A stretch of 38,147 bases of DNA from Methanosarcinales archaeon (lineage in GTDB: Archaea > Halobacteriota > Methanosarcinia > Methanosarcinales > Methanocomedenaceae): NCBI GenBank assembly GCA_030610815.1, contig JAUWRA010000003.1:1-38147 (forward strand), given 5' to 3'. Shown piece after piece: positions 12,179 through 38,147 of this stretch (its first letter is position 1; the number at the start of each line of letters is the position of its first letter). The notes beneath the pieces are model-generated. The model worked only from the letters and a program-made list of their open reading frames with translations, ran no database searches and was not told where the DNA came from. The position numbers and the translations under genes were made by a program.

Positions 12179-12229
12179 AGAATTACTGGCAAGGAAGATC
12201 AATAAAAAAAGAAGTGTGAGGATTTTATA

Positions 12230-13627: not shown

Positions 13628-13645
13628 CTTCCCTGAGGCAGTGCC

Positions 13646-14395
13646 TTGAAAGTCGTAGCAATTACCGGGAAGGGAGGTACAGGCAAGACTGCTGTAGCAG
13701 CCATGCTCATCCGCTGGCTGGTGAACAGGGATGCAACCATCCTGGCCATTGATGCTGACCCTGACTCCAATCTCCCTGAGGCACTTGGGGATGTGGTTGA
13801 GGAAACCCTGGCCGACCAGCGGGAGTTCCTGCTGCAGGAGCGGGATAATCTGCCGCCTGATACTGATAAGGAACGGTTGCTTGAATCCAGGATATACAGT
13901 ATACTTGCTGAGCGTCATGGGTATGACCTGCTGGTGATGGGCAGGCCCGAAGGCAGTGGATGTTATTGCTTTACCAACAACTTGCTGCGCAACATAATGG
14001 ACCGGATCATCAAGAACTATGACCTGGTGATCATTGATACGGCAGCTGGCCTGGAACACCTTAGCCGGGGTATCATCCGGGATGTTGACGAACTTGTTGT
14101 GGTGACAGACGGTTCCAGGCGGGGGCTCCAGACTGCCGAGCGGATACGGGACCTTGAAAAGGAACTGGACCTGAAGATACGGCATATGTTTGTGATATTC
14201 AATAAGGTGACACCGCAAAACCGTGAGCGGCTTAATAAATATGCACAGGAATTAGGGCTGGAGGTTGCAGGCATGGTACCATTTGATGAGGATATTGCCA
14301 GATTCGACCTGGACGGAAAGGCACTGAGTGAACTGCCTGCGACATCAACTGCGGTGATTGAAATGGAAAACATTATTATGAAATTGGGGATTTAA
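13646..14395 (+). CDS. CooC-like nickel-insertion ATPase
   Basis: P-loop VVAITGKGGTGKTAVAAML; IDADPDSNLPEALG; MGRPEGSGCYCFTNNLLR; placed between cdhC and cdhD. Confidence 0.9.
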   Translation: MKVVAITGKGGTGKTAVAAMLIRWLVNRDATILAIDADPDSNLPEALGDVVEETLADQREFLLQERDNLPPDTDKERLLESRIYSILAERHGYDLLVMGRPEGSGCYCFTNNLLRNIMDRIIKNYDLVIIDTAAGLEHLSRGIIRDVDELVVVTDGSRRGLQTAERIRDLEKELDLKIRHMFVIFNKVTPQNRERLNKYAQELGLEVAGMVPFDEDIARFDLDGKALSELPATSTAVIEMENIIMKLGI

Positions 14396-14449
14396 GAGAA
14401 CAGATTTACAATTACTTGAAGACATGCGATGAAATAAGGTGGAATCACA

Positions 14450-15754
14450 ATGGCAAAAAAGATCAAGTTATCTGAACTGGGCAGCCTGTTCAATGATATG
14501 GACGTGGAATCCCTGGAAGGTGTGACCATTGAAGGTGACATTGAACTGGAGATGGATACCGGTGGCGGGTTTGATCCGCAACTGGCATATATGCTGGGAC
14601 ATGAAACAGCCCAGATAGCCCGGCACTTGATAAACATATCACGATTATTAGGTTATCCTGTGGACCAGTTGTTCGGGTCAATAGCCCAGGGAGAAGTTCC
14701 AGGTGTTACCAGGCCCAGGCAATTGCTGCCATCTAAATTCGAAGTTGGTAGGATCGAAGAGTGGAAAAACCCCATACAGGAAGTAATACTGGGTGCCACA
14801 TCCTCAGACGGTGGTACCAGGAAGAATACGTTCACCCTGGGTGGTGAGAACGCACTGCCCTATTATTTTGACAGTCCCATGCCGCACCGCAACCACATCA
14901 CTATGGATGTGTTTGATATGCCTATCGGGATGGCAAAGGCTGTGAAGGTTAATTATGAGGATGTGCTCGAAAGCCCGGCAGAATGGGCCAAAAAAGTTGT
15001 CAATGATTTTGGTGCCGACATGGTGACCATCCACCTTATCAGTACAGACCCGAATATCAAGGATACATCTCCCAGGGAAGCTGCCGAGACCGTGGCCGAT
15101 GTGTTACAGGCCGTGGATGTACCTATCGTTATCGGCGGCAGCGGCAACCCTGAAAAGGACCCCGAAGTGCTGGAGAAGGCCGCTGAAGTGGCTGAGGGCG
15201 AGCGTGTGCTGCTGGCCAGTGCAAGCCTGAACCTTGATTATGAACGTATTGCAAAGGCTGCCACTGATTACGGGCATGTGGTGCTCTCATGGACCCAGCT
15301 TGAGATAAATGCCCAGAAGGAGTTGAACCGCAAACTGATGAAGCAGTGCGGGGTTAAGCGTGAGGATATTATCATGGACCCCACAACCGCAGCACTGGGA
15401 TACGGCCTGGATTATGCTTATACCAATATGGAGCGCATCAGGCTGGCAGGTCTTATGGGGGATGAGGAGCTGTCATTCCCGATGAGCAGCGGTACTACCA
15501 ATGCATGGGGTGCCAGGGAAGCCTGGATGGTAGGTTCCCCGCTTAAGGAAGACAGCGACTGGGGACCCAGGGAATACAGGGGTCCGATATGGGAGATCGT
15601 GACCGGCCTGACCCTTTCACTGGCAGGCAACGATCTGTTCATGATGATGCATCCAGGTTCGGTAGCTGTACTAAAGGAGATTACCCAGAGCCTGCACGGT
15701 TCACTTGAGAGGGATGCAGTGGATATATCCGACTGGGTCACGGCGGAGGTGTGA
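14450..15754 (+). CDS. cdhD: CODH/ACS corrinoid Fe-S protein subunit delta
   Basis: [46 protein letters not shown]-barrel [33 protein letters not shown]. Confidence 0.95.
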
Positions 15755-15756
15755 AA

Positions 15757-17163
15757 ATGAAAGTCAACAGCCCACTTGAGGTTTACAAGTTCCTGCCCCA
15801 GACCAATTGCGGTGATTGCGGTGAAGCTACTTGCATGGCTTTTGCATCCCATATGATAGACCGTTCATTGAAACTGGAAGACTGCCCGCCCCTGCTTGAG
15901 GATAAGTTCAGGAAAAAGTACCTGAAGCTGGCAGAACTGCTGGCACCTGAGATAAGGGAAGTGATTATCGGTACTGGCGAACACGCTGTGTCCGTGGGCG
16001 GCGATGATATACTGTACCGTCACCAGTTGACGTTCTTTAACCAGCCTGCACTTGCTGTGGATGTCTGGGATACTATGAGCGAGGATGAACTGACAGAACG
16101 GATCAAGTTCATTAATGAGTATAAGAAATTCTATGTTGGCAGGTTCCTGAAACTTGACATGGTTGCTATTCGCAGTACTTCCGGCGACCCTGACAAGTTC
16201 AAACAGGCTGTAACTATTGCGGCCGGGAATACTGAACTGCCGCTAATCCTGTGCAGCCTGGACCCTAAGGTGCTAAAGGCCGGCCTGGAAGTAGTGGCTG
16301 ACAGGAAGCCTCTGCTATATGCTGCTACAAAGGATAACTGGCAGGATGTGGCCGACCTGATGATGGAGTACGATGTACCGCTGGTACTGTTCTCCCCTGA
16401 CGACCTGGATACTTTAAAGAGCCTGGCTGCCACGTTTTTGGAGATGGGACGTGAGGACCTGGTACTTGATCCGGGCACAAATCCGCAGGGGAAGCCGCTA
16501 CGGGAATCATTTGAGAATTTCCTTATGATAAGGCGTGCCGGAATCAAGGAAGGACAGCATGAGATTGCTTTCCCGCTGCTGGCAGTACCTATGACGGCAT
16601 ACCTTGCCAATGACGACCCTGTTTCTGCCAGTTACTGGGAGACTGTGCTGGCATCGGTATTCACGGTGCGCTACGGTGATATCATGATACTGCACAGCAT
16701 CGAGCCTTATGCCCTGCTGCCTGAGATGCATATCAGGGATACTATCTACACTGACCCGAGAAAGCCTGTAAAGGTGGACCCAAAGGTGTACGAGGTGGGT
16801 TCGCCGGATAAGGATTCACCTGTATTTGTAACAACCAACTTTGCCTTGACATATTATACAGTGGAGAGCGATCTGGCCAGTAACGATATTGACTGTTACC
16901 TGCTGGCGACCGATACTGACGGCCTTGGTGTGGAGGCTGCGGTGGCAGGCGGGCAGATGACAGGGCAGAAGGTGTCTGATGAGTTCAAGAGGATTGGTTT
17001 TGATTTCAGCGAGATGACCGCTCACAATACTGTCATTCTTCCGGGACTGGCTGCACGCCTGCAGGGTGACATGGAGGATGCCAGCGGACTGAAGGTGAAG
17101 ATCGGACCGCCTGACAGCGGCCGGATACCTGGCTGGATGGAGAAGAACTGGCCTCCTGAGTGA
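15757..17163 (+). CDS. cdhE: CODH/ACS corrinoid Fe-S protein subunit gamma
   Basis: MKVNSPLEVYKFLPQTNCGDCGEATCMAFASHMI (4Fe-4S motif), C-terminal corrinoid-binding region. Confidence 0.95.
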   Translation: MKVNSPLEVYKFLPQTNCGDCGEATCMAFASHMIDRSLKLEDCPPLLEDKFRKKYLKLAELLAPEIREVIIGTGEHAVSVGGDDILYRHQLTFFNQPALAVDVWDTMSEDELTERIKFINEYKKFYVGRFLKLDMVAIRSTSGDPDKFKQAVTIAAGNTELPLILCSLDPKVLKAGLEVVADRKPLLYAATKDNWQDVADLMMEYDVPLVLFSPDDLDTLKSLAATFLEMGREDLVLDPGTNPQGKPLRESFENFLMIRRAGIKEGQHEIAFPLLAVPMTAYLANDDPVSASYWETVLASVFTVRYGDIMILHSIEPYALLPEMHIRDTIYTDPRKPVKVDPKVYEVGSPDKDSPVFVTTNFALTYYTVESDLASNDIDCYLLATDTDGLGVEAAVAGGQMTGQKVSDEFKRIGFDFSEMTAHNTVILPGLAARLQGDMEDASGLKVKIGPPDSGRIPGWMEKNWPPE

Positions 17164-20743: not shown

Positions 20744-20800
20744 CATTTACAGGATTTACAGGATTGGATCCTATCCTGTCAATCCTGTTTATCCTGTCTG
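20744..20800. repeat. ACAGGAT/ATCCTGT palindromic repeat element
   Basis: ACAGGATTTACAGGAT (20749-20764) - tggatcct - ATCCTGTCAATCCTGT (20773-20788), arms 15/16 complementary, plus further TTATCCTGT unit. Confidence 0.75.
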
Positions 20801-22971
20801 AAATTTTCATTTTCTTGAGATTTTCTGCATTTTAATATGTAAGTAATTAGGGATACGACAACAACCCCGGCCAGAATTACAATAAAAGCATACGTATAAC
20901 CCAGCATTTCATACACAAAGATGGCTATGACAGTTACTATGGCAACAGTTACTGGAATAGATAAAGCTAATATCTTACATTCTTTTGTTTCCAAAGATAC
21001 AATATCAGATACAGGCTTACTCATGCCAAGTGCCAAATATGATAATATCCATTCTTTCTTACGAATAACATCAGATGAAAGTGTGAGTAACACACCTAAA
21101 ATCAGCAGCACACATCCACTCCACATCAAACTTGCAAAGGGCTGCTTTTTAACATTTATTTCGATTGTCTCAAGCTCAATCTGGTGCGCCAGTGCTCCAT
21201 GGAATTCAATCTGGGTATCTGAAAGCAAACCGAGTCTTATCGCCGGGCGGGTAATATATCCAAATTGCCGGCTTTTCAAAAAAACAGGAGTTGCTTTATA
21301 CTTTTTATAGTCAATTACTTCAACATCCACGATCTGATACCAGTCCGATCCTTCCTGCTCAACTCTATAATCCAAAAACCGCAATACTATGCCCCCATCT
21401 TCTTTGGAAACTCCCTTCTCAGATAAACTATAACTAAAATTATGTGTAGTTGCAAAGGAAGTGCTCAGAATGGCACCAAGAATAATGAAAACAAACCCCA
21501 CATGAATAAAATTAATCCCATTTAAGTGGAGCGATGCTGTTTTATTCCTAATCCTCAAATCTTTCATCGTTTTAAAGATGACACTACCTGTAACAAAGAA
21601 AAAAGCAGGTATATAAGAAGTAACAGAAATTGAACCTAATATCCTTTCAAAAGATGAACCAGTGTGGGATGCTGCTACAGCATGGGTACCGTACGGTACT
21701 GCTACAGCGAGTATAATGGAGACTGTGAAATAAATAATGCCAACATAGGCCAGTGTGCGGTTCTTCACTCTGCCATACAGCATGCAGATACCGGTAAGAT
21801 AAGACAGGACTACAATAAGGGGATAAAACAATATATTATAAAATTCCATTGGAATAATTATCGCCCGGCCCAAATAACCGAAAATTAAATACACAGTAGG
21901 TCCCCAGAAGGCAATAAATGCCATCATGATCATTATCAATATTGTAAAATAAAAAGTATTGGATGGTTTTAAAATATGAATGCTGTCTGATGTAGTTTGT
22001 CCAGGCTCAACACGCCTTAAAGCCAGCATTAATGAAAAAACAATAATAATTGCCATAAAAACAACAATCATCCACCATGTGGGTGTTCCGGGAAAGCTGT
22101 GTATGGAACCAAAAACATCGCTTCTTGCTAATAAAGTCATATATAAAGATCCAAGAAATGTCCCGATACATAACAGCGGGAACAATCTCTTATATTCTCC
22201 CACATTGAAACGAACAATAGCATGCAGGGCAGCAGTCAACAAAAGCCATGTGCACATTGAAAGCGCTTGTATCGGGTCCCACTGCCAGAAACCGTTCCAG
22301 CCTAAAAGACGATTAGCCCATATACCGCCTGCGATTATACAAATGCTTAAAAATAACCATGTGATCCGGAGAAAATTTTTACTATCCGGCATATTCTCTC
22401 TCTTTGTGAGATAAGCCAGCGACATGGCAGCAGGAATGATTGCAAACGCATACGCAATAAATGTCGTGAAAATATGCAGCGGCATTAAAATATCCATAAG
22501 TTCCGGGCTGATGCCATTTCCAGTGGATGGCAAAGAAGCTCCACCCACCGCGAATATTGATCTAAAAGGTGTCATCGTAATTGTCAGGACAAGCAAAAAA
22601 GCACAGCCTATTAAAGCATATACATTAGTGATCATAGCTGTCCGGTTGTGTATCCCATGCACTTCTGTATACAGCAATACTACCATGAGGGAAAGCCATG
22701 CCCATATCAAATACGTTCCCTCCTGCCCTACCAATATAGCAGCCAGCCGATAAAAAACCGGTAGTTCAGCACTGCTATGCTGCCAAACATAGAACAGACT
22801 GAAATCCAGAAATACAAAGGCAAATACCAGCAACAGCACAGCAAGTGTTGCCAAAAAAGTTGCGGTTCTTAATAGCTGTATGCTTGTTTTTATTCTGCCA
22901 TTAAACATATAAACAGCAGCTGAACATGAAGATAACAAACTGATGTATAAGAGCATGTTCCCAATATTCAT
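20779..22971 (-). CDS. CcmF/CcsA-like cytochrome c biogenesis protein
   Basis: Multi-TM; tryptophan-rich WANRLLGWNGFWQWDPIQALSMCTWLLLTAALHA; AILVGQEGTYLIWAWLSLM. Confidence 0.88.
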   Translation of the reverse strand: MNIGNMLLYISLLSSCSAAVYMFNGRIKTSIQLLRTATFLATLAVLLLVFAFVFLDFSLFYVWQHSSAELPVFYRLAAILVGQEGTYLIWAWLSLMVVLLYTEVHGIHNRTAMITNVYALIGCAFLLVLTITMTPFRSIFAVGGASLPSTGNGISPELMDILMPLHIFTTFIAYAFAIIPAAMSLAYLTKRENMPDSKNFLRITWLFLSICIIAGGIWANRLLGWNGFWQWDPIQALSMCTWLLLTAALHAIVRFNVGEYKRLFPLLCIGTFLGSLYMTLLARSDVFGSIHSFPGTPTWWMIVVFMAIIIVFSLMLALRRVEPGQTTSDSIHILKPSNTFYFTILIMIMMAFIAFWGPTVYLIFGYLGRAIIIPMEFYNILFYPLIVVLSYLTGICMLYGRVKNRTLAYVGIIYFTVSIILAVAVPYGTHAVAASHTGSSFERILGSISVTSYIPAFFFVTGSVIFKTMKDLRIRNKTASLHLNGINFIHVGFVFIILGAILSTSFATTHNFSYSLSEKGVSKEDGGIVLRFLDYRVEQEGSDWYQIVDVEVIDYKKYKATPVFLKSRQFGYITRPAIRLGLLSDTQIEFHGALAHQIELETIEINVKKQPFASLMWSGCVLLILGVLLTLSSDVIRKKEWILSYLALGMSKPVSDIVSLETKECKILALSIPVTVAIVTVIAIFVYEMLGYTYAFIVILAGVVVVSLITYILKCRKSQENENFRQDKQD

Positions 22972-25900
22972 CTAAGCCGTCTCCAGATTAAATATAACAT
23001 TGCAATAAAAATTAATATAGGTAGGATATCTCTTAATATAAGCTCAATAATTGCAAATCCCACAGGCTTTTTCACTGTGAGCACACCGATATCTACATTA
23101 CTCCATTTTCCGGAAGAGTCTTTCACATGTACAAAAATAGTATGCTTTCCTAAGGATAGGTCTGATGTTTCTATCACTGCCCCAAGCAAGACAGATGAAT
23201 CAGATGACCCGCCGACCACAAATTCCAGAGGCATCCCGTATCCTTCCCGACCCATATCATCAATGAAATATTCAGCACCCGTTACTTTTGTAAGCGTTGG
23301 AAGCACCACTGATGCCTGCAAGAGGCTCGTTTCTCCCTGGAATACTTCCTCAGGATTCAATGTGACTGCCAGACGAGGTATAAACTGGGTAGTTGCGAGA
23401 GTATGGAAACTTATAGGGTCAGCCCCGCCGTGACACAATGTGCAGTTAGGTGCCAAACCATGAGCTGTACCCGAAGGTGAGAGACCCTGGGTACCCATAT
23501 TCGTGGCATTGAAAGGTGTAGCTCCGCCGTGATATGTATGACAGTCCTTGCATTTTGTAACATTCCCTGCGGTCCAGTTCGGCCAGCCAGGGTCTTGTAC
23601 AGTACCCATAGGATAAGAATCAAAGTGGAATCTGTTCTCTCCTGTGACATTGTGACATGAGTCACAAGTTATTGTAGCATCTGATACTGTGTGCGAAATG
23701 GTTGCCATGGTTCCCCCTATGATCTTCAATGACCTGACATGGTCCATTAGGGATTCGATGTCTTTATGACAAACACGACAGGGCTCAAGGACTTCGTCCG
23801 TAACTTCGCCCACAAAGTACGTCAGGTTATGATATATATCAGCCTCCTCATTGTGACAAAGGACACATGTAGTAGTTTGATTCGTCATTTTAATTTCTGC
23901 ACCTGCATAATGGACAGTGCCGTATTCAGAGTGACAGTCGACGCACAGTATGCCTTCAAACGGCTGATATTCCTTCCCTTCATGTTCAGGATGACAATCC
24001 AGGCACTCAACATCATGTCTGACCGCGCCTCTGAAAGTGCTCTTGCCCAACAATGTCGGGGTATGGAATTTACTAATACCCTCAGGAGAGTGACATACAT
24101 CACAGCCGGAAATAACTTTTATACCGGATCCGTGGCGCAGTACCTCTATCAGCGCTTCTGATTTGTGGGGGAATTCTCCTTCAACGCTGTGACACGGGAA
24201 GCAATAGCCCATGGTCTCGTTTCGGTATTCTCTTACTTCAAGGTTTATGTGTAATGTTTCATTAGTGGCGTTATGACACACACGACAGGTGTACTCATTG
24301 CGTTTCAGGGTGTTTACACTATCATCCGGTGCACCCGGATAGTGTGTAATAATTGGACTCAGGTTGAATTCATCTGCCCGCTGTTTGTCAACGTGGCAAT
24401 CTTCACAATTCCTTGTTATGGTTATTCCTTTGTCATGGAATGTCGTAACTCCCTCACCTGCATGGCATAGTGTGCAATCATTATCTGCATTGTGTTTTGT
24501 AACCTGTGGTGCATCTCCCCATATGGGTGCATTTGTTTCATTGTTATGGCATACATCGCAACTGGATGTATCTAAAAGGTCTTCCCGTGTTGAATCATGG
24601 GATGTTGCAGCCTTTACATTTTTAGAGGTGCCACTAATGACAGCATTAAAGTGACAGTCCCAGCATGTTGAATCTGTTGAGATTTCAGAGCCCTGGTAGT
24701 GTGTATATATCTGCGTTGCATCAAATTGTGAGTACCCATGACAGCTAATACAGGTTTTTGGCGGGCGCTCACCAAGGTAGGGCGTAGGATGCTCATCCGG
24801 CTCGCTGCCATTGCCGTGACATGCCCAGCATGCTTTGTTTGCCTCGTCAGTGATAAAAGTGTTAAAGGTTGCATTTTGATTCAAATAAGCATGCACACCT
24901 TTTTTAAATGTATCCACATCGATTTTAATGGGGGCTACTCCATTTCCTGCATGGCAGCTGATACAGTCCGAGCTGTATTCGCCAGGTGAAAGGGTATACA
25001 CATGGAATGTCCCTGGTTCCTCTCCAACTGTTATGACACTATCCAGCGGCAGGTCCCTTAATAATTTCTTAGTCTGTAGTATCCATAAGTCACCGTCCAG
25101 GACTATCTGCTCACCTGCAATGAGCCACACATCCTTTAGTATAATAGCCTGGGTTGTTGTACCAACAAAAACAATATCCAGTTTTGCGCTGAATACATCA
25201 ATATCCCGGTCGAATATCCGTTCTTCATATATGAAATTACTTCCCTCATTTATTATTGTATCTTCTACCAGCGTTTCATTTTTATACAGTTGCAGCCGTG
25301 TAGCAGTGCTTTGCAGGTTTACATCTGCAACATAAAGATTATAACCTTCTCCAAGATCCCAGTATTCTCCCATCCTGAGCACTTTTTTATCACTCTTTTC
25401 GAAATTGACATATATACGTCCCAGAGTGACATTTTCATCATCTTTATCCAGGATATAGTAATCCCTGCCGTCCGGTTCATTTGTACGATATTCACGATCA
25501 TGGCAGGCATAGCACGCTATGTTATCTGTTTCTCTGTGGATGCGTGATGCAAGCACATCACCTGACAATTCAACAACGTATGCATATGGATTTATTCCTT
25601 TGAATATTTTGGTTATTGTGAAATTTACGATACTGGTGTTGTCATCTTCTATCCCGCTGATCTCGAAATTAAGCTTATCACCCAGGGACAGGATGTCACG
25701 TTCAAGCAGTTCACCATCCTTTTCAAAGATGAACATGGCAGCATTACTTGTGGTTTCTAATAACGTGATGGAATAATTATCCACAAGTTTCCACGGCCTG
25801 CCTGCAATGATGGTTTTTTCAACAAAGGCATAATCCGTATGGTTTCTTGGATCAGGTGCATTGCCCCATTCCTCTGCATTGTCTTCATCGAGATGACAGT

Positions 25901-28900
25901 AGATACAGTCTGATGTATTTACCAGGTTCCAGGTCGATCCGTAATGTGATACCAGTGAGGTATCATTTGGAACAATATTGTCTCCGTGGCTCATGATGCT
26001 GTTTTTATGGCATACCGAACAATCTGCTGTTGTGTTAACATGCTCGTCGATATCATACAGATACCTGATGTGCTCATAGACCATGGGTTCATAAAAGATA
26101 GATTGGTTGAAATTGTGGCATTCCCTGTTAGCGCAGTTCTTGGGAGTGCTGTAGTTGTCAGGGTGGCCTGTAGGTTGGGCAGCCTCTGATCCGTTCCCGT
26201 CGCCATGACAGGCCCAGCAGCGTACGTTACTCGGATCCAATGTGTCGGCTGCACCTCTGTTGAGATCATAATGAATTGCACCTGACCTGTTCATGGCCTG
26301 TACATCGATCTGGTACTCTTCACTCACCATTCCACCTATATCATGACAGCTCACACAATCATTTCCGGCACCAGAGACCATACTGTCATTGTGGAATGTA
26401 AACCCTGCCACAGGAATTCCATTATCCATTACCCTGTTTGAGATATGGCATGGATAACATCCACTGCTATTAATGAGGTTTAATATCGTAGTATGATTGT
26501 AGTGGGTAGAAGTGAAGGGATCGGTAGGCTCACCCCATGAAACATTATCTGAATTATCAACGTGACACCACCAACAGTCGGTAGTATTATTGGTTGTTGT
26601 CATTAACGTGGCAGTATCTACGTAGTGAGAAACATAGTTCTTGGCTTCAGCGTATTTGACACTAATAGTTGGTATTGGAATGGATAGTGAATTGTTATGG
26701 CAGAAAGTACAGTTGGCAGATATGTTTGTTTGAACATCCAAACCCCGGGGCTGGTGTTCAGGGATCTGTATGGGCGGTATCTTTATCAGGTGTTCACCAT
26801 TTAACGGTGTTTCATTAAAGTGGCAGTCCTCACAATCAGGTAATTCTGATACTTCTCTGGTATGGGCCTGTTCTACAGGTTCTTCAGTATAATTCACATG
26901 ACATCCCCAGCAGACCCTGGATATATCAGAATAATTACTGGCATTGAAATCTCCTGTAATGTTCTTGTGTGAACTATTGAAAAAACCAGTCCTATTTATT
27001 ATTGGCAGATCTGCAGTTGCACTTGCACCCCCCTCCAGATGGCAGTCAGTGCAGTTCCAGCCACCTGCTTCCTCGGGCTCGAAATGTGGATCCCTGTGGC
27101 AGTCCATACAACCAGTATATCCCATCTCATAATAATCTGCCATGACATGACCGCCAGGACGCTGTATATGGCAGTCAGTGCAGTTCCTGATTGAAATATC
27201 ATGGAATGAATTATGACACAACCTGCACGTAACGTCATCCTTGCCATCGCTGTTATGATCAGTATGGGTATATGATAATCCCTGGTTATCCCACGAAGGC
27301 ATGGGTTTATATGTCTGTGCACCTGCTAAACTTCCGCTTGCATTGGGATTGTGGCATTCGCTGCAGTTCCATGGTATATGAATAACCGGTTTTTGCTGGA
27401 TCGGATGACTTGAAGTTATTGTATAATTAAAAGTACCCGGAGACCGCGGGAATACCCTGGCGATCCATATACCGCTTTTGGGAGATGAATCAAAAGTAAC
27501 ACCGCAAAATTTGTCACTCGATGGGAAATATATTTTTGATCCAAATGCGAATGTGGCAGTTCCATTGACGCTGGGTACACAATAGGTGCCATCCCACGGG
27601 TCAGCAGTGTTTAAATCCTGAAGACCGTTGGTATTGTCTATCGGTCCGATAAGTGAAAGAAATATTTGATATTCATCGTCATCACCGGTTACAGTCACAT
27701 CAATTGTCCCGGAATTATCCATATTAATGATATAGGTTTTTGTCACCGCTTCATATGACATGAACTCTGGTCCATAGTCCCCGATTGAATCGTTCAGTTG
27801 TTTTGTGGTGTCAAATGGGGGGTAATATAAACCTTCCCCTGCGGTCTTGCTGTAAATTCCATGACAGGCTTCGCATGTTACATTTATTGCATGAATGCCA
27901 GTACTGCTGATATTAGTTCCTATGAGTTCATCAGTGTTTGCGATCAGATGTTTATCAGTTCCAGTGTTATCATGTATAAAATTAGTATGACAGTCAGTGC
28001 ATTCTGCCACTGTTACATGAGAGGCAACATTGAATGTGGTCTGTAAAATGGGCCGCTTAACAGATGTTTTATAATACATCTGCACGTTTGCATTTGTGCT
28101 ATTGTAAATAGTGGTCCATCCACTTGAACCATAAATAAATCCACCCTCATGGCCGTATTGAAGATCATGTAAGTGAAGGGGAGTTGCCCGCAGGAACTGC
28201 GATGAATAGGTACTGTGACACACGCTCAGGCAGTTTCCACTTAGTTCTGATATAATGTCATCAGGATGTATAATAACTGTCGGGTTACGCTTGGAAGAAT
28301 CGCTTGACGGACTCCATGAATCATGGCAGCCTCTTGCCTGGCAGCCCCATAATGTGGTATTGAAACTGGTTGATGCCTGAAGATCCTTGGAATTTATTGT
28401 AGTGCTGAAATCGACCTGGTATTCACCAGTATAAGCATCATCCGGGTAATTGAACACCCCGTAATATATCTGATGAACATAGTCCTCTACAAGGTATATT
28501 GTTGTGGTTTCACTTGAGAAACCATCACTTGAATAATTGTAATGCGGATAGGTAACATTCGCTGTGAGTACTGGTGGTTGTTGTAAGCCTTCAGCACCAT
28601 CACTGAAAATTTCGTCACCATCCGATCTCACTTTTATATCATCTATCCACCATTCTTCATCGTTATTGTTATTTACGCTGAAATAGAATGCTATGAGTAT
28701 TTGCTGTCCATCATACTTTGTCAGGTTGACTGTTTTTTCCACCCATCCACTGCTGTTGCCCGAATATTCTTCAAGTGTGTCCCAGGTTGCCCCCCTGTCG
28801 ACTGAAACTTTGACAAAACCGTGATTTTCTGTCATATTATACTTAGTCCAGTATGTCAGGTTGATCATTGGCTTTACAGTAGCGGGATCAACTCCTGTGA

Positions 28901-29345
28901 TCAATTTGTTAAACCAGTTATATGTCTTTGCAAAAAAATCCGGATTTTCTTGGGATTCTGATAACACAATATCCTTAAGTGGAGTACCGGGTGAACTATA
29001 GTTATCAAGATAATGCCAGCTATGTATACCCTCTCCTGCCTTCCAGCTATAACTTCCGTTGGATTTCTCTGAGCTGTCTCGCATCCATGCTGGAGGTGAA
29101 AGGCCGCTGACTGGTGTGGCATTCTCCATAATACTTACCAGAATGAGGTTTTTTTGCTGCATCCCGCCGTCAGTATCCCACCAGGTCCAGCCTGTGACAT
29201 TTCCCTGACTTAAGTATCCGAGTTGATACGGGGTCTGACCATAGTTCATTATCACAGTATAATTTTGTGCCTGAACCACAACAACACCCGCACTACACGT
29301 TAGTATGATTAATAAAAATATACGTGCAGTGTTCATGTTTTTCAT
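22968..29345 (-). CDS. Giant membrane-anchored multiheme c-type cytochrome with S-layer-like domains
   Basis: 2125 aa; signal peptide; hand count 34 CXXCH + 2 CX4CH + 1 CX3CH; S-layer (DUF1608-like) sequence MGEYWDLGEGYNLYVADVNLQSTATRLQLYKNETLVEDTIINEG...FSAKLDIVFVGTTTQAIILKDVWLI; C-terminal TM IIELILRDILPILIFIAMLYLIWRRLR. Confidence 0.93.
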   Translation of the reverse strand: MKNMNTARIFLLIILTCSAGVVVVQAQNYTVIMNYGQTPYQLGYLSQGNVTGWTWWDTDGGMQQKNLILVSIMENATPVSGLSPPAWMRDSSEKSNGSYSWKAGEGIHSWHYLDNYSSPGTPLKDIVLSESQENPDFFAKTYNWFNKLITGVDPATVKPMINLTYWTKYNMTENHGFVKVSVDRGATWDTLEEYSGNSSGWVEKTVNLTKYDGQQILIAFYFSVNNNNDEEWWIDDIKVRSDGDEIFSDGAEGLQQPPVLTANVTYPHYNYSSDGFSSETTTIYLVEDYVHQIYYGVFNYPDDAYTGEYQVDFSTTINSKDLQASTSFNTTLWGCQARGCHDSWSPSSDSSKRNPTVIIHPDDIISELSGNCLSVCHSTYSSQFLRATPLHLHDLQYGHEGGFIYGSSGWTTIYNSTNANVQMYYKTSVKRPILQTTFNVASHVTVAECTDCHTNFIHDNTGTDKHLIANTDELIGTNISSTGIHAINVTCEACHGIYSKTAGEGLYYPPFDTTKQLNDSIGDYGPEFMSYEAVTKTYIINMDNSGTIDVTVTGDDDEYQIFLSLIGPIDNTNGLQDLNTADPWDGTYCVPSVNGTATFAFGSKIYFPSSDKFCGVTFDSSPKSGIWIARVFPRSPGTFNYTITSSHPIQQKPVIHIPWNCSECHNPNASGSLAGAQTYKPMPSWDNQGLSYTHTDHNSDGKDDVTCRLCHNSFHDISIRNCTDCHIQRPGGHVMADYYEMGYTGCMDCHRDPHFEPEEAGGWNCTDCHLEGGASATADLPIINRTGFFNSSHKNITGDFNASNYSDISRVCWGCHVNYTEEPVEQAHTREVSELPDCEDCHFNETPLNGEHLIKIPPIQIPEHQPRGLDVQTNISANCTFCHNNSLSIPIPTISVKYAEAKNYVSHYVDTATLMTTTNNTTDCWWCHVDNSDNVSWGEPTDPFTSTHYNHTTILNLINSSGCYPCHISNRVMDNGIPVAGFTFHNDSMVSGAGNDCVSCHDIGGMVSEEYQIDVQAMNRSGAIHYDLNRGAADTLDPSNVRCWACHGDGNGSEAAQPTGHPDNYSTPKNCANRECHNFNQSIFYEPMVYEHIRYLYDIDEHVNTTADCSVCHKNSIMSHGDNIVPNDTSLVSHYGSTWNLVNTSDCIYCHLDEDNAEEWGNAPDPRNHTDYAFVEKTIIAGRPWKLVDNYSITLLETTSNAAMFIFEKDGELLERDILSLGDKLNFEISGIEDDNTSIVNFTITKIFKGINPYAYVVELSGDVLASRIHRETDNIACYACHDREYRTNEPDGRDYYILDKDDENVTLGRIYVNFEKSDKKVLRMGEYWDLGEGYNLYVADVNLQSTATRLQLYKNETLVEDTIINEGSNFIYEERIFDRDIDVFSAKLDIVFVGTTTQAIILKDVWLIAGEQIVLDGDLWILQTKKLLRDLPLDSVITVGEEPGTFHVYTLSPGEYSSDCISCHAGNGVAPIKIDVDTFKKGVHAYLNQNATFNTFITDEANKACWACHGNGSEPDEHPTPYLGERPPKTCISCHGYSQFDATQIYTHYQGSEISTDSTCWDCHFNAVISGTSKNVKAATSHDSTREDLLDTSSCDVCHNNETNAPIWGDAPQVTKHNADNDCTLCHAGEGVTTFHDKGITITRNCEDCHVDKQRADEFNLSPIITHYPGAPDDSVNTLKRNEYTCRVCHNATNETLHINLEVREYRNETMGYCFPCHSVEGEFPHKSEALIEVLRHGSGIKVISGCDVCHSPEGISKFHTPTLLGKSTFRGAVRHDVECLDCHPEHEGKEYQPFEGILCVDCHSEYGTVHYAGAEIKMTNQTTTCVLCHNEEADIYHNLTYFVGEVTDEVLEPCRVCHKDIESLMDHVRSLKIIGGTMATISHTVSDATITCDSCHNVTGENRFHFDSYPMGTVQDPGWPNWTAGNVTKCKDCHTYHGGATPFNATNMGTQGLSPSGTAHGLAPNCTLCHGGADPISFHTLATTQFIPRLAVTLNPEEVFQGETSLLQASVVLPTLTKVTGAEYFIDDMGREGYGMPLEFVVGGSSDSSVLLGAVIETSDLSLGKHTIFVHVKDSSGKWSNVDIGVLTVKKPVGFAIIELILRDILPILIFIAMLYLIWRRLR

Positions 29346-30418
29346 ATTGTCTCCGTTTCGTTTTCTTTTGTATTGTGCTTCAATCTGACACCCAATAGAT
29401 AAAATATTATTGAAAAAATACCTAAGAATACAAATTGATCAAGTGAAAACTTTGGTAGGAATTTTATGTAATATATATTTACGCTGAATAATTGTATTAT
29501 TAGTAAAGATGCGAAAATGATCGAGATAGTTATTAAAATTTTCCCGAATTTATAATGATTTCGTATCAAATAGATCCTTGATGAAGACAGATATGGAATG
29601 ATTTTTTTATCAATTGGAATTTTATTTATGGTTTTATTCAAATCAAATGGTAAAGTCCCCTCTATCAAGTATTTGCTCCATACAAAATAGGCACTTGCAT
29701 ATATTGCAAGTCCAATTCCCATGCTACCTAATAAGATCTCATCACTAAAAATAAATATTGTATTACTTATCACTGTTGTGATAGGAATTGTGAGAATCGG
29801 TATAAAAACCCACCACCATGCGGATGATTTTTCCCAGAGAGTGTATTCATAGGTTATTTCGAGCCACCAAAGAACATATAACATTGTTAATACAAAGGGA
29901 GTATAACTGTATGTGAATCTTAATAAAAATATGAATGCAACGAGAGTAATGTTAATTAAAATAATCAATCGAAGAAAACGTGAGATTTGTGCAGCAATAT
30001 CGATTCCGAATGCTGGCTCAGTCCCGGGAATCTTAAATTCAACCGAACGTTTTTTAAGTTGATCAATATTGATATTCATATTGTTTAGCCGTTCATCCAT
30101 CTTATCAATCACAACCTGGGTGCCTGCGATTTCCTCCAAAATGGGTTCAAGCCTGTTATATACACCATTTTCAAACCCCATATCGATTAGTTGTTCCATG
30201 GCAATGGTTCTTTTTGCAAGAGTAATCCCCCCCCATAAAGCACATAATCCAATTATTAGAATAGTCAGATTCACAATAAAATCCTGTGCATTGAATTCTT
30301 TGCCTGACAGTACATCTATCACTGGCGCATAATATGAGTATATTATATAAAATGCCATGAATAATAAAAATAATATACTAAATTTTTCCAATAGTGAAAT
30401 ACCTATTTTTTCAGTCAT
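29342..30418 (-). CDS. Multi-TM membrane protein of unknown function
   Basis: 358 aa with several hydrophobic segments and an internal soluble/coiled-coil stretch (MDERLNNMNINIDQLKKRS); 4-nt overlap with giant MHC. Confidence 0.75.
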   Translation of the reverse strand: MTEKIGISLLEKFSILFLLFMAFYIIYSYYAPVIDVLSGKEFNAQDFIVNLTILIIGLCALWGGITLAKRTIAMEQLIDMGFENGVYNRLEPILEEIAGTQVVIDKMDERLNNMNINIDQLKKRSVEFKIPGTEPAFGIDIAAQISRFLRLIILINITLVAFIFLLRFTYSYTPFVLTMLYVLWWLEITYEYTLWEKSSAWWWVFIPILTIPITTVISNTIFIFSDEILLGSMGIGLAIYASAYFVWSKYLIEGTLPFDLNKTINKIPIDKKIIPYLSSSRIYLIRNHYKFGKILITISIIFASLLIIQLFSVNIYYIKFLPKFSLDQFVFLGIFSIIFYLLGVRLKHNTKENETETI

Positions 30419-30506: not shown

Positions 30507-31289
30507 TCAGTAACTTCTACCAGTGGATTTGAAGTTTATGAATATATAAAGCAAAATACAAATTATGAATATTATTAGCCCGAGATTCTTGATATTCTTA
30601 ATGATCTGGCTGACTCTATACATCTCAGATCCGTATTTTGTAATTTGAATATTATTTGGATCGAACAGTAAATATTCGCCAATATTCTTGACTATTATTG
30701 GTTTCCCCTGAAATAATACTGCTTGCCCTTGTATCTGTTCTTTTTTCAATATCCATTCATCCGCAAATTCTGCAGCATCACCCTTTGTCTTGATTTCATC
30801 CTCTGAAACCGAATATATCCTATGGATAACTGGCATTGTTGCCGCTTTTGTCTTGAACATGATGATATCTCCCTGTTGCGGATCGATTTTCACGTTTTGT
30901 ATGAGAACAAGGTCCTTTACTTCAAGGGAGGGGGACATACTGCCTGATGTTATTATGGCTAAAAATATGAGTTGATTAAGAATAATGTATGCTGTAAATC
31001 CTGTGATGATCAGTGGAATTATTACAGGCAAAATTTTCGGTCTTTTTGATAATTCGTGATAACGTTTCATTTGGGGTTTTACAATTTTTACCTGGTTTTT
31101 GTATGATTTTTTACCCATTATTAAGTTAACAAACCTTATAAAAAAAGTAGAATTTTTAACATGCACTCGGTAAAATATTATGAATACTAATAATAAAATA
31201 AAAAATAATATCAGTATGATTTGATTAAAATTATATAGGTAAAAAAAAACAAATAAAAAAAATCCAATTAATTGTTCGAAAAATGACAT
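30507..31289 (-). CDS. Signal peptidase I (archaeal/SipW-like)
   Basis: IITSGSMSPSLEVKDLVLIQNVK catalytic Ser region; GDIIMFKTKAATMPVIHRIYSV catalytic His region. Confidence 0.88.
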   Translation of the reverse strand: MSFFEQLIGFFLFVFFYLYNFNQIILILFFILLLVFIIFYRVHVKNSTFFIRFVNLIMGKKSYKNQVKIVKPQMKRYHELSKRPKILPVIIPLIITGFTAYIILNQLIFLAIITSGSMSPSLEVKDLVLIQNVKIDPQQGDIIMFKTKAATMPVIHRIYSVSEDEIKTKGDAAEFADEWILKKEQIQGQAVLFQGKPIIVKNIGEYLLFDPNNIQITKYGSEMYRVSQIIKNIKNLGLIIFIICILLYIFINFKSTGRSY

Positions 31290-31444: not shown

Positions 31445-32113
31445 TTATTCTTGAACGAGGGTTGTATTTGTAGTGACGTTAATTTCCCATAAATTAGTTG
31501 TTCTATTTATGGTCGCATTTATATTAAGTCCACCAAACTTGTACCACGAGATATTTATATCGGTCATGGTATGACATCCAATACATGCGGCACTTTCAGT
31601 TGCACTATCAATAGATTGATTGTAGAAATCACTATGTGCAGAATCAGGATCACTTAGTTGCACTGATGCATTATAGTGGCAATCTGCACAATCCACTTTA
31701 ATAGCAGCATGTGGCGTGTTTTGGGTTCGCCATGTACCGCTGAAGTTAGTCGCACTACTTGTATTATTGAGACCTGCTTGTGTAAAATCTTCGAAACTAT
31801 AATCATACAAAGATGTTAAATTTAGTCCATAATCTTCAAGAGCAGTTGCGTTGACCTGATGGCAAATAGTACATCCTGATCGTGTTGGGTACTCTGTAGC
31901 AAACGTGGCATGTGCACCACCCGCAGCTATGTTTGCCTCCCATTCATCTACTTCTGGTTGATGACATTTTGCACACAATGCTTCCATATCATCTGGATTC
32001 TTAACACTATACCATGTATGTTGTCCCACAAACATTGACAATGTGCTGGGCAATATGAACAATCCAATTGCAATAATAGCAATCGCCAAAATTAATACTT
32101 GATTTCCTTTCAT
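31445..32113 (-). CDS. Membrane-anchored tetraheme cytochrome c
   Basis: N-terminal TM; STLSMFVGQHTWY; CXXCH x4 (CAKCH, CTICH, CADCH, CIGCH). Confidence 0.88.
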   Translation of the reverse strand: MKGNQVLILAIAIIAIGLFILPSTLSMFVGQHTWYSVKNPDDMEALCAKCHQPEVDEWEANIAAGGAHATFATEYPTRSGCTICHQVNATALEDYGLNLTSLYDYSFEDFTQAGLNNTSSATNFSGTWRTQNTPHAAIKVDCADCHYNASVQLSDPDSAHSDFYNQSIDSATESAACIGCHTMTDINISWYKFGGLNINATINRTTNLWEINVTTNTTLVQE

Positions 32114-32802: not shown

Positions 32803-33246
32803 ATGGCCCTGAATATTTCAATCAAAACCGTGGCAAGTGCTGGCGCTGGCGGTATTATCTACGGAATAGTCGTTATACTCCTGAACTATTTTGCACCAAT
32901 TATTGGAATTATCGCTGGTTTTATTAGTGGGATCGGACTTGTGGTCTTAAGTGGCCAGGACGATGAAGATAATATGGATATTTCACCAGTTAACCTGCTC
33001 TATTTTGCAGGGGTTGCAATAGTTTCTCTTCTTATCGGATATATCATAATTTATTATTTTAAAACCGAGATCATCCACGGCATGCCATATTACCCAAAGG
33101 ACTTCACAACACTTACAGATTTTATATTATCCACACTCAGAATCCGGGATATACTCAGCACAATAATCGGTGGTCTCATTGCATTTTCATTATCTGATAA
33201 AATAAGTGCAGTTTACAGGTATTTACGCGGTGGCCCACCGGTGTGA
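32803..33246 (+). CDS. Integral membrane protein of unknown function
   Basis: ATG 32803 (ORF track start 32779); Gly-rich hydrophobic segments, ~4 TM. Confidence 0.65.
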   Translation: MALNISIKTVASAGAGGIIYGIVVILLNYFAPIIGIIAGFISGIGLVVLSGQDDEDNMDISPVNLLYFAGVAIVSLLIGYIIIYYFKTEIIHGMPYYPKDFTTLTDFILSTLRIRDILSTIIGGLIAFSLSDKISAVYRYLRGGPPV

Positions 33247-33980
33247 TTGTACTCACCCGGAATGATCTCTATATCGACCTGAACCCCGGAATGACATCCG
33301 ACACATGCCCAGTAACCCTTTGAAAAATAATCTCCTTTAACATTTCCCATTGTATGGTCGAAAGGATTACCTGCTGTGTACCTAGTTGCCTCGTTGCACT
33401 GGCTTAGATAGAACGCTCTGTGAAGGTTACCTGAGTAATTTAAGACCATTCCCACATTGAGTCTTGTCTGCGACGTATCGAACAGTTCAGGGTCATTTAA
33501 AGTATAATTCCTGTTGCCATGACACCAGTCATCATCACATGTTCTCATAGATATTGCATGGGCATCAGGTTTGTCTAATAATGATTTATTGTGGCATAGG
33601 TGACAGATTTCATTTCCATTGATATCTGAATCACCATTATGATCCAGACTGACTAATAATGATGTTATATCATTGGTCCATAAAGTGCCGTCCCATGTCC
33701 AGGTCTTATTATCTACCGAATAAATTGTGCCGTTTGATGGACAATAATCAATGCCTCCAATGGCAAGATAAGTAGTATAATTAGTATTGCTGGCTGCCCT
33801 GATATGTACTTGACCGGTAGCAGACCCATTTACCTCATTATATTCTGCTATATGGCATTTCTTGCAGTTCACTTCATCATAAAACACATGCTGTCCCGTA
33901 AACATTGAAAGTATATCGGGCACAATAAATATTGCAAGCGCTAATAAACCAATTATCAATAATATCTTACCGCGTTCCAT
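33213..33980 (-). CDS. Membrane-anchored multiheme cytochrome c
   Basis: N-terminal TM; DILSMFTGQHVFY; CKKCH, CHLCH, CVGCH and CX4CH (CDDDWCH). Confidence 0.85.
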   Translation of the reverse strand: MERGKILLIIGLLALAIFIVPDILSMFTGQHVFYDEVNCKKCHIAEYNEVNGSATGQVHIRAASNTNYTTYLAIGGIDYCPSNGTIYSVDNKTWTWDGTLWTNDITSLLVSLDHNGDSDINGNEICHLCHNKSLLDKPDAHAISMRTCDDDWCHGNRNYTLNDPELFDTSQTRLNVGMVLNYSGNLHRAFYLSQCNEATRYTAGNPFDHTMGNVKGDYFSKGYWACVGCHSGVQVDIEIIPGEYNHTGGPPRKYL

Positions 33981-34098: not shown

Positions 34099-34512
34099 TT
34101 AATCACTGAAAAACCCCCTGCTGTTGCTGTATAATTGAGAGTCTGTTTTGTTTATGATGTAATGCGCAGACTGGTTTAATCCGCTTATGCCACTATGGAT
34201 CATGATATCTCCGGATGTTTCATTGTACTTTGAGTGACAGTTGGTACAATATATCTTCTTGGTAAGATTGTGTGTCATATTGACATTATATTCCGCACTT
34301 GAATTTGGATTGTATCCATGACATATGCAGTTTGCCGGGCTGTGTGCGCCAGCGCTGACATTGGCTGCAGATGCAGAGTGACATTTGCTGCAAAATTCCT
34401 GTGGAGTGGTCTCACTTTTAGATAATTCGTGACTGCCTGAGAGCATAGCATTAGCTATGCCTATGATCAATATAATTAAGATTCCCGCGATAATTATTCT
34501 TTTTGAGATCAT
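34099..34512 (-). CDS. Small c-type cytochrome
   Basis: N-terminal signal/TM; CSKCH, CTNCH plus non-canonical CICH. Confidence 0.75.
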   Translation of the reverse strand: MISKRIIIAGILIILIIGIANAMLSGSHELSKSETTPQEFCSKCHSASAANVSAGAHSPANCICHGYNPNSSAEYNVNMTHNLTKKIYCTNCHSKYNETSGDIMIHSGISGLNQSAHYIINKTDSQLYSNSRGFFSD

Positions 34513-34518
34513 AGATTT

Positions 34519-37500
34519 TCAGTACCACTCCTGACTTGTTCTGTTACCTTTATCCGGATATACGTGGCAGTATCTGCAATTATATGCAGGATCATAATAA
34601 CCAACAGCAGCATTATATGCCGTTGCATTATGGCAGGTGGTGCAGTCCGTGATATTGAGCACGTTCATTCCTCCGACCGAATATGTGGATGGTGTGGTTG
34701 TTACATTGTGGCGATCGCTTTCGTTTATAGGATCTGCTTGATACGAATGGCAGCACTCGCACCATTTCCAGGTATAATCCTTGATCGGGTGTTCTATCTG
34801 CGTATTGATATGGCACATCGTGCAGTTCAACCCCCCGTGCACACTCGCATCGAACATCGTCTCGTTCACATACGCTTCAGAGTCGTCCAGTCCGAAGTGG
34901 CAGTTTTCGCACTCTTCTGACCAGTTCACTGTTGCTGGGATCGTAAGACTTGAATCATGTATCCTGCCTATATTATGGCATCCCATAACGATGCAGCCAG
35001 ATGTCTTTGTCGCATGTGTGATGTTTGCGGTGTAGTTCGGGTATCCTGCATATTCGAATATGCTGATGAACTCGTTTGTCGAGTTTTTGTGGCACCATGC
35101 GCAGTCAGAGTAACCGCCACTTACGTTTGCGATATCAGGACGGCTTATCGCATAATGCGATGCCTGCGACATGTTTACACGGTACGACGCGTTCCCGCCA
35201 GCATCAAAGCCCGGAACCTTCATCGTGCTTAAGTTGTGGCACCCGTATCCGCATGAGGTCGAGTTCGTCGTGGCATTCGTGCGTGCTGTGATATTGATGC
35301 CGCCCTTGAAGTGGTTATAGACCGCGGTTGCGTTGCTCACGTTCAGGTACGCATAAGTGTCGTTGTGGCATTCATAGCAGAGGTAAGCGTCGTTGTTGAA
35401 GGTGTCTCTGTGTCCGTTTTCGGGGTACGCCCCTCCTGGCACATGGCAGCCCCAGCACATTGAATTGTTGGGGTCATTGATCGGTGCTGCGGATGCAACT
35501 GGGGTCATGTTATTGTTCAAGTTCGCATGTACCCCCAGATTCATCGCGGTAACATTGATCTCGTAGACCGTGTCCGTCTTGTTAACCCCATAGAGCGCGT
35601 GGCAGTCTGTGCAGTTTCCGCTCGTCAGAACCCGTGTCAGGGTCTCGTTGTGAAGACTGCCATTACCATGACAGTAGTTGCAGTCCTGGCCTCCTGCGTG
35701 CTGGATATTCTTGTCGTTCGTAAATTCTATGAACGGAGTCGATGTATTGACGTGGCAGTATGAGCAGTACGCGGTGCTGTTATTCCCCACGAACAGATCG
35801 ATGAGATCTGTCCGGTTATTCCCATAGTGTGATGTGATCGAGAAGTTCGTGCGGTAGATATCGTTCTCTGTGAACGGATAGAACATCTCTGACTGGTTGT
35901 GGCAGCCCATGCACGAGTCCGAGTCTGTCGGGCGGTTCCAGTACGCAGAGATGTTGGTTCCGTTCTTGAAGTGGTTGTGAACCTCTGGTGCATCGCTCAC
36001 ATTGCTGAATGGACCTCCGGCTTTGTTGTGGCAGTCGTAGCAGCGATACGGCGTATCCTTTAGCATACTATGCTTATCCGCGTTCATGCCATTTTCGAAG
36101 TGGCAGACCCAGCACGACTGGTTGGTGCCGTATAGACCGGTGGTCGCGTTGTTCATCCTGGCGTGGATCGCACCCCCATAGACGCTCCCATTGATCAGTT
36201 TTTTCTTTGCAAACCCATCATTGTCGTGGCAGTCCAGACACGTGAATCCACCCTGTCCCGACCACAGATTCGCTGCATGGAAGTCCACTGGGGTTACTTC
36301 GTTATTTGTGTGGCAGACGTAGCAGCCATCATCCTGGTCTGCCTCGTTTGTGAAGTTGCCGTGATCATTCTGCAGAGCGCCCCCCCATTTCGTTGCATTC
36401 TCTGGTGTAGTGTTGTGGCAGATGCTGCAGTCCTCGGTCGGATAGATCAGATACGTCGTTGTGCCGTAGTGCGAGACATTGGCAAAGATCGTGTTTCCGA
36501 TGATCTTTTCTGCAGTATCGTTGCGATGTGGGTCGATGCTGTTGTTGTGGCAGTCAACGCACCTCCCATCTCCGTCTACATTGGTTTTTAGCGTTGAAGA
36601 GTTCGGATAGTGCGCATATATCACCGGTGGCAGCCTGTTCAGACCGAGATCCGGATCACTTGCACTCTGCCATGTCTCGCCATTACTGGTGGCACTGTTC
36701 CATACATCACTCCTTGCATGGCAGTCCTCACAGGTATACGGCAGCTCATCAGCGGTGATGCGCCCATCATCATTCAGATCAGTGATCCCGTTGCGGTCGC
36801 CCATGCCCTCAGGAATCGTGCCATCGCTGTTGTGGCAACCCCAGCACGGGTTTGACCTGTTATCCATCCCGTACCCCTCGGGGACGAGGGTGTTGTTCAG
36901 GATGTTTCCGTGAATCCCCAACTTGATCGATGTGGAATTGACGAGCGACTGCACCCCGTACGTGCTATCCACATCATGGCATAAGACGCAGTTCGGACCG
37001 CCGCCTGCATATATCGATTCGTTGTGGAAGTGTGAGAGCGTGCTGTTGTCGACGATCCCTACCCAATCAGGTCGGACGTGGCAGTAGGTGTAGCACATAG
37101 AGATGTTCGTGGTGTCTGCACCGTACATATTCCCGCTGATGTTCGTGGCATTGCCCCAGATCTGTCCGTTCGTCCAGTTGCAGTGGCAGAAGAGGCAGTC
37201 AGTGGTGTCGCACAGAACGTTTGGACTGTCGATGCCAAGTATGTCTATTCCCTGCGATCTGTTCAACCCGTAGTGCGAGACATTGCCCATCGTGGTTCTG
37301 CCTTCGTAATCGCGCAAGTGATCATCCTCGTAGGCACCCCCATCAGTGCCCGTTCCCCATTTCCACACCTTGAGATTCCCCTCTGGATTGATCATACTTT
37401 CCGGAAGAACGCTCGGAGCGTGGCAGTCGCCACATGATCCGCCCTTGCCGATATCGGTCTGGATGAGGATCGATTCTGCGCCCTTCGTGGTCGGACCATG

Positions 37501-38147
37501 GTTATCGATTGCAGCAACCAGTCCCTGTGTGTGCGGGGGCTGACCATCGTAGGGTCCGTGGCACTTCGGGCATTTGTACGGGCCCAGTGCCCGATCGGGA
37601 TGGTATCCAGGATACGGCGGCGTGCCATTGGTAGAGTGACATGCCCAGCAGATCGCGTTGTCTTCGGTGATATTGTTGATCTGTTCAGATGTGTAAGTAC
37701 GATTTTCGAGCCATCCGTTAAAGGTCCTCGTGGTTCCCTGAAGAATGCTGCCAGTGCGGAACGCTCCGCTCAGATTGGTGTGCATCGCAAGTTTGATCGC
37801 GGTCAGGTTCACGATCGGGCGGATAGGGGTTTCGTTGTATGCGGAAGCATTGTTGTCATGGCACTCGAGGCAGCCCGCGCCGCCTGCGGGTTCGTAGTCG
37901 ATGAATTCGCGGTAGGTGAAATAACCCTTCTGGTTCTGAAGGTCGTATTTGAACCAGTCGTGGCATCCACAACCATCCGCCGCCCCCGTATAAAGTCCAC
38001 CCCCTTTATTCATCGTTGTATTGTTCCAGCTCGCATAATCCAGTACCTCCCATGATATACTGTCTGGAGGCGCGACATTGGTGATGTATGTGTAATTAAA
38101 AATATTGCCATATGCTTTATCTATGAGCCGTGTCGTTGCCGGATTAT
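34519..38147 (-). CDS. Giant multiheme c-type cytochrome, N-terminus beyond window
   Basis: Frame stays open from ORF start 38013 to window edge (NPATTRLIDKAYGNIFNYTYITNVAPPDSISWEVLDYASWNNTTMNKGGG...); 26 CXXCH + 2 CX3CH + 1 CX4CH + 1 CXCH in visible part. Confidence 0.92.
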   Translation of the reverse strand, partial: NPATTRLIDKAYGNIFNYTYITNVAPPDSISWEVLDYASWNNTTMNKGGGLYTGAADGCGCHDWFKYDLQNQKGYFTYREFIDYEPAGGAGCLECHDNNASAYNETPIRPIVNLTAIKLAMHTNLSGAFRTGSILQGTTRTFNGWLENRTYTSEQINNITEDNAICWACHSTNGTPPYPGYHPDRALGPYKCPKCHGPYDGQPPHTQGLVAAIDNHGPTTKGAESILIQTDIGKGGSCGDCHAPSVLPESMINPEGNLKVWKWGTGTDGGAYEDDHLRDYEGRTTMGNVSHYGLNRSQGIDILGIDSPNVLCDTTDCLFCHCNWTNGQIWGNATNISGNMYGADTTNISMCYTYCHVRPDWVGIVDNSTLSHFHNESIYAGGGPNCVLCHDVDSTYGVQSLVNSTSIKLGIHGNILNNTLVPEGYGMDNRSNPCWGCHNSDGTIPEGMGDRNGITDLNDDGRITADELPYTCEDCHARSDVWNSATSNGETWQSASDPDLGLNRLPPVIYAHYPNSSTLKTNVDGDGRCVDCHNNSIDPHRNDTAEKIIGNTIFANVSHYGTTTYLIYPTEDCSICHNTTPENATKWGGALQNDHGNFTNEADQDDGCYVCHTNNEVTPVDFHAANLWSGQGGFTCLDCHDNDGFAKKKLINGSVYGGAIHARMNNATTGLYGTNQSCWVCHFENGMNADKHSMLKDTPYRCYDCHNKAGGPFSNVSDAPEVHNHFKNGTNISAYWNRPTDSDSCMGCHNQSEMFYPFTENDIYRTNFSITSHYGNNRTDLIDLFVGNNSTAYCSYCHVNTSTPFIEFTNDKNIQHAGGQDCNYCHGNGSLHNETLTRVLTSGNCTDCHALYGVNKTDTVYEINVTAMNLGVHANLNNNMTPVASAAPINDPNNSMCWGCHVPGGAYPENGHRDTFNNDAYLCYECHNDTYAYLNVSNATAVYNHFKGGINITARTNATTNSTSCGYGCHNLSTMKVPGFDAGGNASYRVNMSQASHYAISRPDIANVSGGYSDCAWCHKNSTNEFISIFEYAGYPNYTANITHATKTSGCIVMGCHNIGRIHDSSLTIPATVNWSEECENCHFGLDDSEAYVNETMFDASVHGGLNCTMCHINTQIEHPIKDYTWKWCECCHSYQADPINESDRHNVTTTPSTYSVGGMNVLNITDCTTCHNATAYNAAVGYYDPAYNCRYCHVYPDKGNRTSQEWY

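Follow-up and report, generated by a model that had tools for sequence, protein, structure and literature searches.

An ANME-2a gene for a giant S-layer multiheme cytochrome of the MHC-B family, with a mosaic heme block next to the S-layer domain

The window (the whole stretch of DNA that was analysed, 38,147 nucleotides) carries a gene for a giant multiheme cytochrome (MHC) within a cluster of genes on the minus strand (Table 1). The protein contains 34 CXXCH motifs, one CX3CH motif (residue 372) and two CX4CH motifs (residues 335 and 1071), whereas shuffled versions of the same protein contain on average 0.13 CXXCH, and at most 2 (2000 shuffles). A match to a CX5-15CH pattern at residue 710 was left uncounted: it consists of two ordinary motifs close together. 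The initial annotation had described a frame of 2125 residues with about 37 heme motifs and a transmembrane anchor at its C-terminus; its count and coordinates are correct, and a hydrophobic segment is indeed found at that end. The plasmid records that were compared gave no match.

Table 1. Genes and features of the MHC locus; positions are those of the window, residues (res) those of the MHC protein.
Feature	Position	Strand	Basis or remark
CcmF-type heme lyase (published CcmF2)	20779..22971	(-)	4-base overlap with MHC gene
ANME MHC-B gene	22968..29345	(-)	2125 aa, 37 heme motifs, S-layer domain, C-terminal membrane anchor
C-terminal hydrophobic anchor (res 2086-2124), WRRLR at end	22974..23090	(-)	hydropathy
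S-layer subdomain II (res 1315-1417)	25095..25403	(-)	PF07752 62.3 bits; 3u2g
CYACH linker heme (res 1278-1282)	25500..25514	(-)	invariant in 36 aligned sequences
His1270, probable distal ligand of linker heme	25536..25538	(-)	invariant in alignment
S-layer subdomain I (res ~1170-1268)	25542..25838	(-)	PF07752 21.7 bits (under single-hit cutoff); model strands, pLDDT mostly 70-90
Mosaic block (res ~911-1170, 7 heme motifs), kin to other S-layer MHC lineage	25836..26615	(-)	identity windows, trees
CANRECH expanded heme motif (res 1071-1077)	26115..26135	(-)	CX2CH outside genus
Second heme-free beta domain (res ~515-650), weakly PPC-like	27396..27803	(-)	heme-motif gap; weak Foldseek
CLSVCH expanded heme motif (res 372-377)	28215..28232	(-)	CX3CH conserved
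CQARGCH expanded heme motif (res 335-341)	28323..28343	(-)	CX4CH in 7 homologues
Heme-free N-terminal region (res 27-330), MAM/jelly-roll-like; published 'peptidase M6-like' region	28356..29267	(-)	PF20773, choice_anch_J, Foldseek
N-terminal signal peptide (res 1-26)	29268..29345	(-)	by eye: hydrophobic 6-24, then AQA; hydropathy
Polytopic membrane protein (published '8x TMH')	29342..30418	(-)	4-base overlap with MHC gene; synteny
Signal peptidase I	30507..31289	(-)	TIGR02228 57 bits (cutoff 51.85); PF10502
Small MHC, 4 CXXCH, conserved cluster	31445..32113	(-)	
Small MHC, 3 CXXCH + 1 CX4CH	33213..33980	(-)	
Small MHC, 2 CXXCH	34099..34512	(-)	
Second giant MHC, C-terminal 1208 aa only (contig end), 26 CXXCH here; MHC-C-like	34519..38145	(-)	

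On the other side of the MHC and CcmF genes, a CODH/ACS-like cluster, recognized by reading the sequences, follows directly (9267-17163, plus strand); CODH/ACS-like genes also come after CcmF at two other loci (L010 and L011). The window further contains a cobyrinate amidase-like frame (5579-7045, minus strand). An incomplete near-copy of its C-terminal part is present at 3723-4130, which looks like the duplication of a gene fragment.

In all seven full-length homologues, which come from four genera, 36 of the 37 heme motifs are retained, the exception being that at residue 1043. The motif at residue 1147 seems to be lost in the full-length comparison because of a gap in the alignment; in an alignment of 36 rows both cysteines and the histidine are invariant. 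The expanded motifs at residues 335 and 372 are still expanded in the seven homologues, and that at residue 1071 is CX4CH within the genus and CX2CH outside it. Outside the motifs, 43 histidines are invariant among the eight full-length proteins, a number sufficient for the bis-His ligation of 37 hemes.

The N-terminal region matches PF20773 (residues 189-255) and the choice-of-anchor J family. In Foldseek, its AlphaFold model, which is of low confidence (mean pLDDT 50), matches InhA-type MAM proteins and CBM16 modules. The HEXXH zinc-binding motif was sought in the MHC protein and is absent, so that protease activity is unlikely, and a catalytic M6 protease was rejected. The 'M6-like' label used for this region in the literature appears to go back to the MAM domain that InhA-type peptidases carry, and the region presumably serves in binding.

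The identity of the heme-poor block in the middle of the protein is supported by sequence and by structure. The block matches the Pfam family PF07752 (DUF1608) with 74.9 bits (cutoff 30), and in a profile built from 36 sequences the only solved structure that was matched is MA0829 (3u2g/3u2h, E 3.9e-11). The AlphaFold model of residues 1040-1540 has two confident beta subdomains, and its top Foldseek match is again the S-layer protein MA0829 (3u2g, E 1.1e-9, probability 1.00, 301 columns). The rmsd between the model and 3u2g is large (20 Å), which we attribute to a difference in the hinge that joins the subdomains and to the unmodelled flanks.

A genome-level profile search splits the PF07752 match into two stretches, 25101-25403 (62.3 bits) and 25572-25820 (21.7 bits, under the cutoff for a single hit). 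On the minus strand, the heme-poor stretches run from 25805 to 25107, with the CYACH motif in between. The initial annotation had read them as two S-layer-like domains separated by one heme. The two PF07752 stretches and the single heme between them stand, but the stretches are subdomains of one domain. Two tandem domains are very improbable even though two stretches are matched, because each of them covers only about 90-105 of the 259 profile positions, a full PF07752 domain elsewhere in the genome spans profile positions 6-259, and the model fits the single two-subdomain unit of MA0829 across 301 columns. Thus, given the profile matches and the alignment of the model with MA0829, the S-layer block is one DUF1608 domain of two subdomains, with CYACH in the linker. 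Another contig of the same genome (C57, locus L001) has a full-length PF07752 match in a frame of 2005 aa, and the part of it that was read lacks heme motifs; this frame is a candidate for the true surface protein of the organism.

The CXXCH motif of the linker is invariant in the 36 aligned sequences, which come from five families of the order and include some near-identical members. A histidine eight residues ahead of its first cysteine (His1270, in I-H-x-E) is invariant in the same set and probably serves as distal ligand to this heme. The heme-free stretches on either side of this heme are 131 and 183 residues long. Since these steps are long, the crossing of the S-layer is the weak point of any model in which electrons pass along the protein. 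The pLDDT of the heme modules is mostly below 40 in the AlphaFold models (residues 1040-1540 and 1-700).

Published MHC-B proteins (Chadwick 2022, PMC9012536) have 20-80 heme motifs, an S-layer domain with a single heme motif in its linker, a C-terminal transmembrane helix and a heme-free N-terminus labelled 'peptidase M6-like'. Their genes adjoin CcmF2 and, in ANME-2a/2b/3, have a signal peptidase and an 8xTMH gene upstream. The protein described here has the same features, with 37 heme motifs, a DUF1608 domain, CYACH at residue 1278 in the linker, an N-terminus with an InhA-like MAM match in which the first heme motif occurs at residue 335, and a C-terminal helix. The neighbouring genes are also those expected, the lyase being CcmF-type by its sequence. 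The same set of CcmF, 8xTMH protein and signal peptidase lies beside the MHC gene at other loci (L051-L053, L056-L058, L066). Relatives occur in 80 of 188 genomes of the order; among the named genomes the nearest is that of Methanocomedens S7142MS1 (L010), whose protein is 88% identical over the full length. S7142MS1 is an ANME-2a Methanocomedens (PMC9012536). The gene product thus belongs to the published ANME MHC-B family, in an ANME-2a archaeon, and the fusion of an MHC with an S-layer domain that had been recognized from the DNA is borne out by the profile, the fold and the membrane anchor. The MAM-like N-terminus and the grouping of the S-layer block with MHC-B in trees (100/100) speak against an assignment to ANME MHC-A, the S-layer MHCs devoid of the M6-like N-terminus.

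The product of the second giant MHC gene matches, at 77%, the last 1200 residues of a protein of 2315 aa from a sister genome (L073:8590-15537). It is considered MHC-C-like because this full-length homologue has beta-helix domains at its N-terminus. In two related genomes (G181 and G186) a homologue of the second MHC (44% over ~2070 aa) forms one chain with the S-layer block and the C-terminal arm of MHC-B (P0004, 3136 aa), and the same order is found in G044. The lineage of G181, and of G182 from the same genus, is probably ANME-3, for which a B/C hybrid has also been reported (PMC9012536). Since they are fused in related genomes, the two neighbouring giant MHCs may act together here. In yet another genome (G046), frames of 5442 aa (L060, C86) and 5615 aa (C49) match the MHC; the frame at L060 joins a huge N-terminal region to the C-terminal half of an S-layer/MHC-B protein, and CcmF adjoins it.

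One part of the protein departs from the MHC-B pattern. In windows of 40 residues, the segment from about 911 to 1170 is only 19-57% identical to MHC-B orthologues outside the genus and 40-90% identical to other S-layer MHCs, including a paralogue in the same genome. In trees, this block groups with the other S-layer MHC lineage (100/100), and it alone does so: block 1171-1540, which contains the S-layer domain, groups with the MHC-B orthologues (100/100). The right breakpoint, at about residue 1171, coincides with the start of the S-layer domain, and the identity pattern switches there within some 20-40 residues; the left edge is gradual, from about 780 to 910. An assembly artefact was rejected because two more genomes of the genus (L051 and L010) carry the same block. 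The paralogue lies on contig C111 (L050:7764-11924), in a frame of 1387 aa with 30 CXXCH, and a gene for an 8-heme protein is directly upstream of it.

Judging from these identities and trees, the block looks like a segmental exchange from a paralogous S-layer MHC in the ancestor of the genus. The direction, from the paralogue to MHC-B, is suggested by the presence of the orthologues' version in several families. Nowhere does the Chadwick paper (PMC9012536) use the words recombination, chimera, mosaic or gene conversion. A general scheme can be put forward tentatively, at less than even odds: ANME S-layer cytochromes would evolve by swapping heme arms at the border of the S-layer domain. In this genus a paralogue would have supplied the arm beside that domain, and the neighbouring beta-helix MHC would have taken the place of the whole outer arm in another lineage. 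The domain and its invariant, presumably bis-His, linker heme would then serve as a common socket for outer arms that differ with the partner or electron acceptor.

We consider, with a probability of about three in four, that this exported and membrane-anchored 37-heme protein is an electron conduit inserted in the S-layer. The analysis establishes family membership, domain order, the conservation of the heme motifs, the linker heme and His1270, and the gene cluster; topology, lattice insertion, heme ligation and electron flow are inferences. The protein would be held in the cytoplasmic membrane by its C-terminal helix, and its C-terminal heme arm would lie in the pseudoperiplasm. The DUF1608 domain, whose linker carries one heme that is probably bis-His ligated, would be part of the S-layer, and the N-terminal heme arm would be outside, together with the jelly-roll domains. 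Methane oxidation would supply electrons that go from the methanophenazine pool to small MHCs, then through the hemes of MHC-B, and in the end reach extracellular cytochromes or a partner bacterium. Maturation of MHC-B would be the task of the CcmF, polytopic protein and signal peptidase encoded next to it. The conduit idea is the published one, including the linker heme as crossing point, which has been proposed for all ANME S-layer MHCs (PMC9012536), and the gene adds a member of a described kind.

In Ca. Methanoperedens, upregulation of an S-layer MHC was seen on electrodes (PMC10874420), which supports such a role for this class of proteins. In some iron-reducing or syntrophic cultures, cited in PMC10874420, S-layer MHCs were reported not to be expressed, which calls for caution.

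The S-layer domain could instead be a mere surface anchor that fastens the cytochrome to the lattice. Electrons would then cross at other sites, such as small MHCs seated in pores of the lattice, and the linker heme would be structural or a side relay. There is just one heme between two beta subdomains of about 100 residues, and the same cluster has several small MHC genes. We regard this as unlikely, since the linker heme and His1270 are invariant over five families while the surrounding S-layer sequence drifts to 30-40% identity, which points to a redox role. It is even less probable that the main function is adhesion or partner recognition, in which case the heme chain would be an extracellular capacitor or a part of the matrix and the jelly-roll domains would bind glycans or partner surfaces. 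This idea comes from the MAM-like and CBM16-like folds of the N-terminus, the model of which is of low confidence, and from the replacement of the outer arm by a beta-helix domain in related genomes. It is compatible with a conduit, and the C-terminal membrane anchor and S-layer domain indicate a role through the layer.

The passage of electrons across the protein coat of ANME archaea is a major open problem of the anaerobic methane cycle. This locus contributes a complete and syntenic MHC-B, with testable details (the invariant linker heme, the invariant histidine nearby and the exchangeable heme arms). The gain is modest because the main idea was published years ago. The small new point is the heme block beside the S-layer domain, apparently swapped in from a sister gene. 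The fusion of the neighbouring giant MHC to the S-layer half in relatives, and a MAM-like N-terminus devoid of HEXXH, are further small additions.

Compared with the MHC-B of S7142MS1, the protein is alike in its N-terminus, its S-layer domain and linker heme, its transmembrane helix and its gene neighbours, with no difference in kind. The genus-shared mosaic block, the invariant His1270 and the MAM nature of the N-terminus are not mentioned in the text of Chadwick 2022 (PMC9012536). The C111 paralogue, of the MHC-A/other S-layer MHC lineage, likewise has an S-layer domain with a linker heme and is 53-72% identical in block 911-1170, but it is shorter, has no Pfam MAM-like match, and its S-layer block is only 20-35% identical. 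MA0829 from Methanosarcina acetivorans, a DUF1608 protein, shares the fold and the sequence profile of the S-layer block; it has no heme arms, whereas the linker of MHC-B holds CYACH. The bacterial MtrCAB/porin-cytochrome conduits resemble MHC-B in sequence only by generic multiheme motifs (PF22113). An analogy of function is drawn in PMC9012536, since these conduits carry electrons across the outermost layer of the cell; in MHC-B, a single polypeptide in a protein lattice, with no beta-barrel porin, would do the same.
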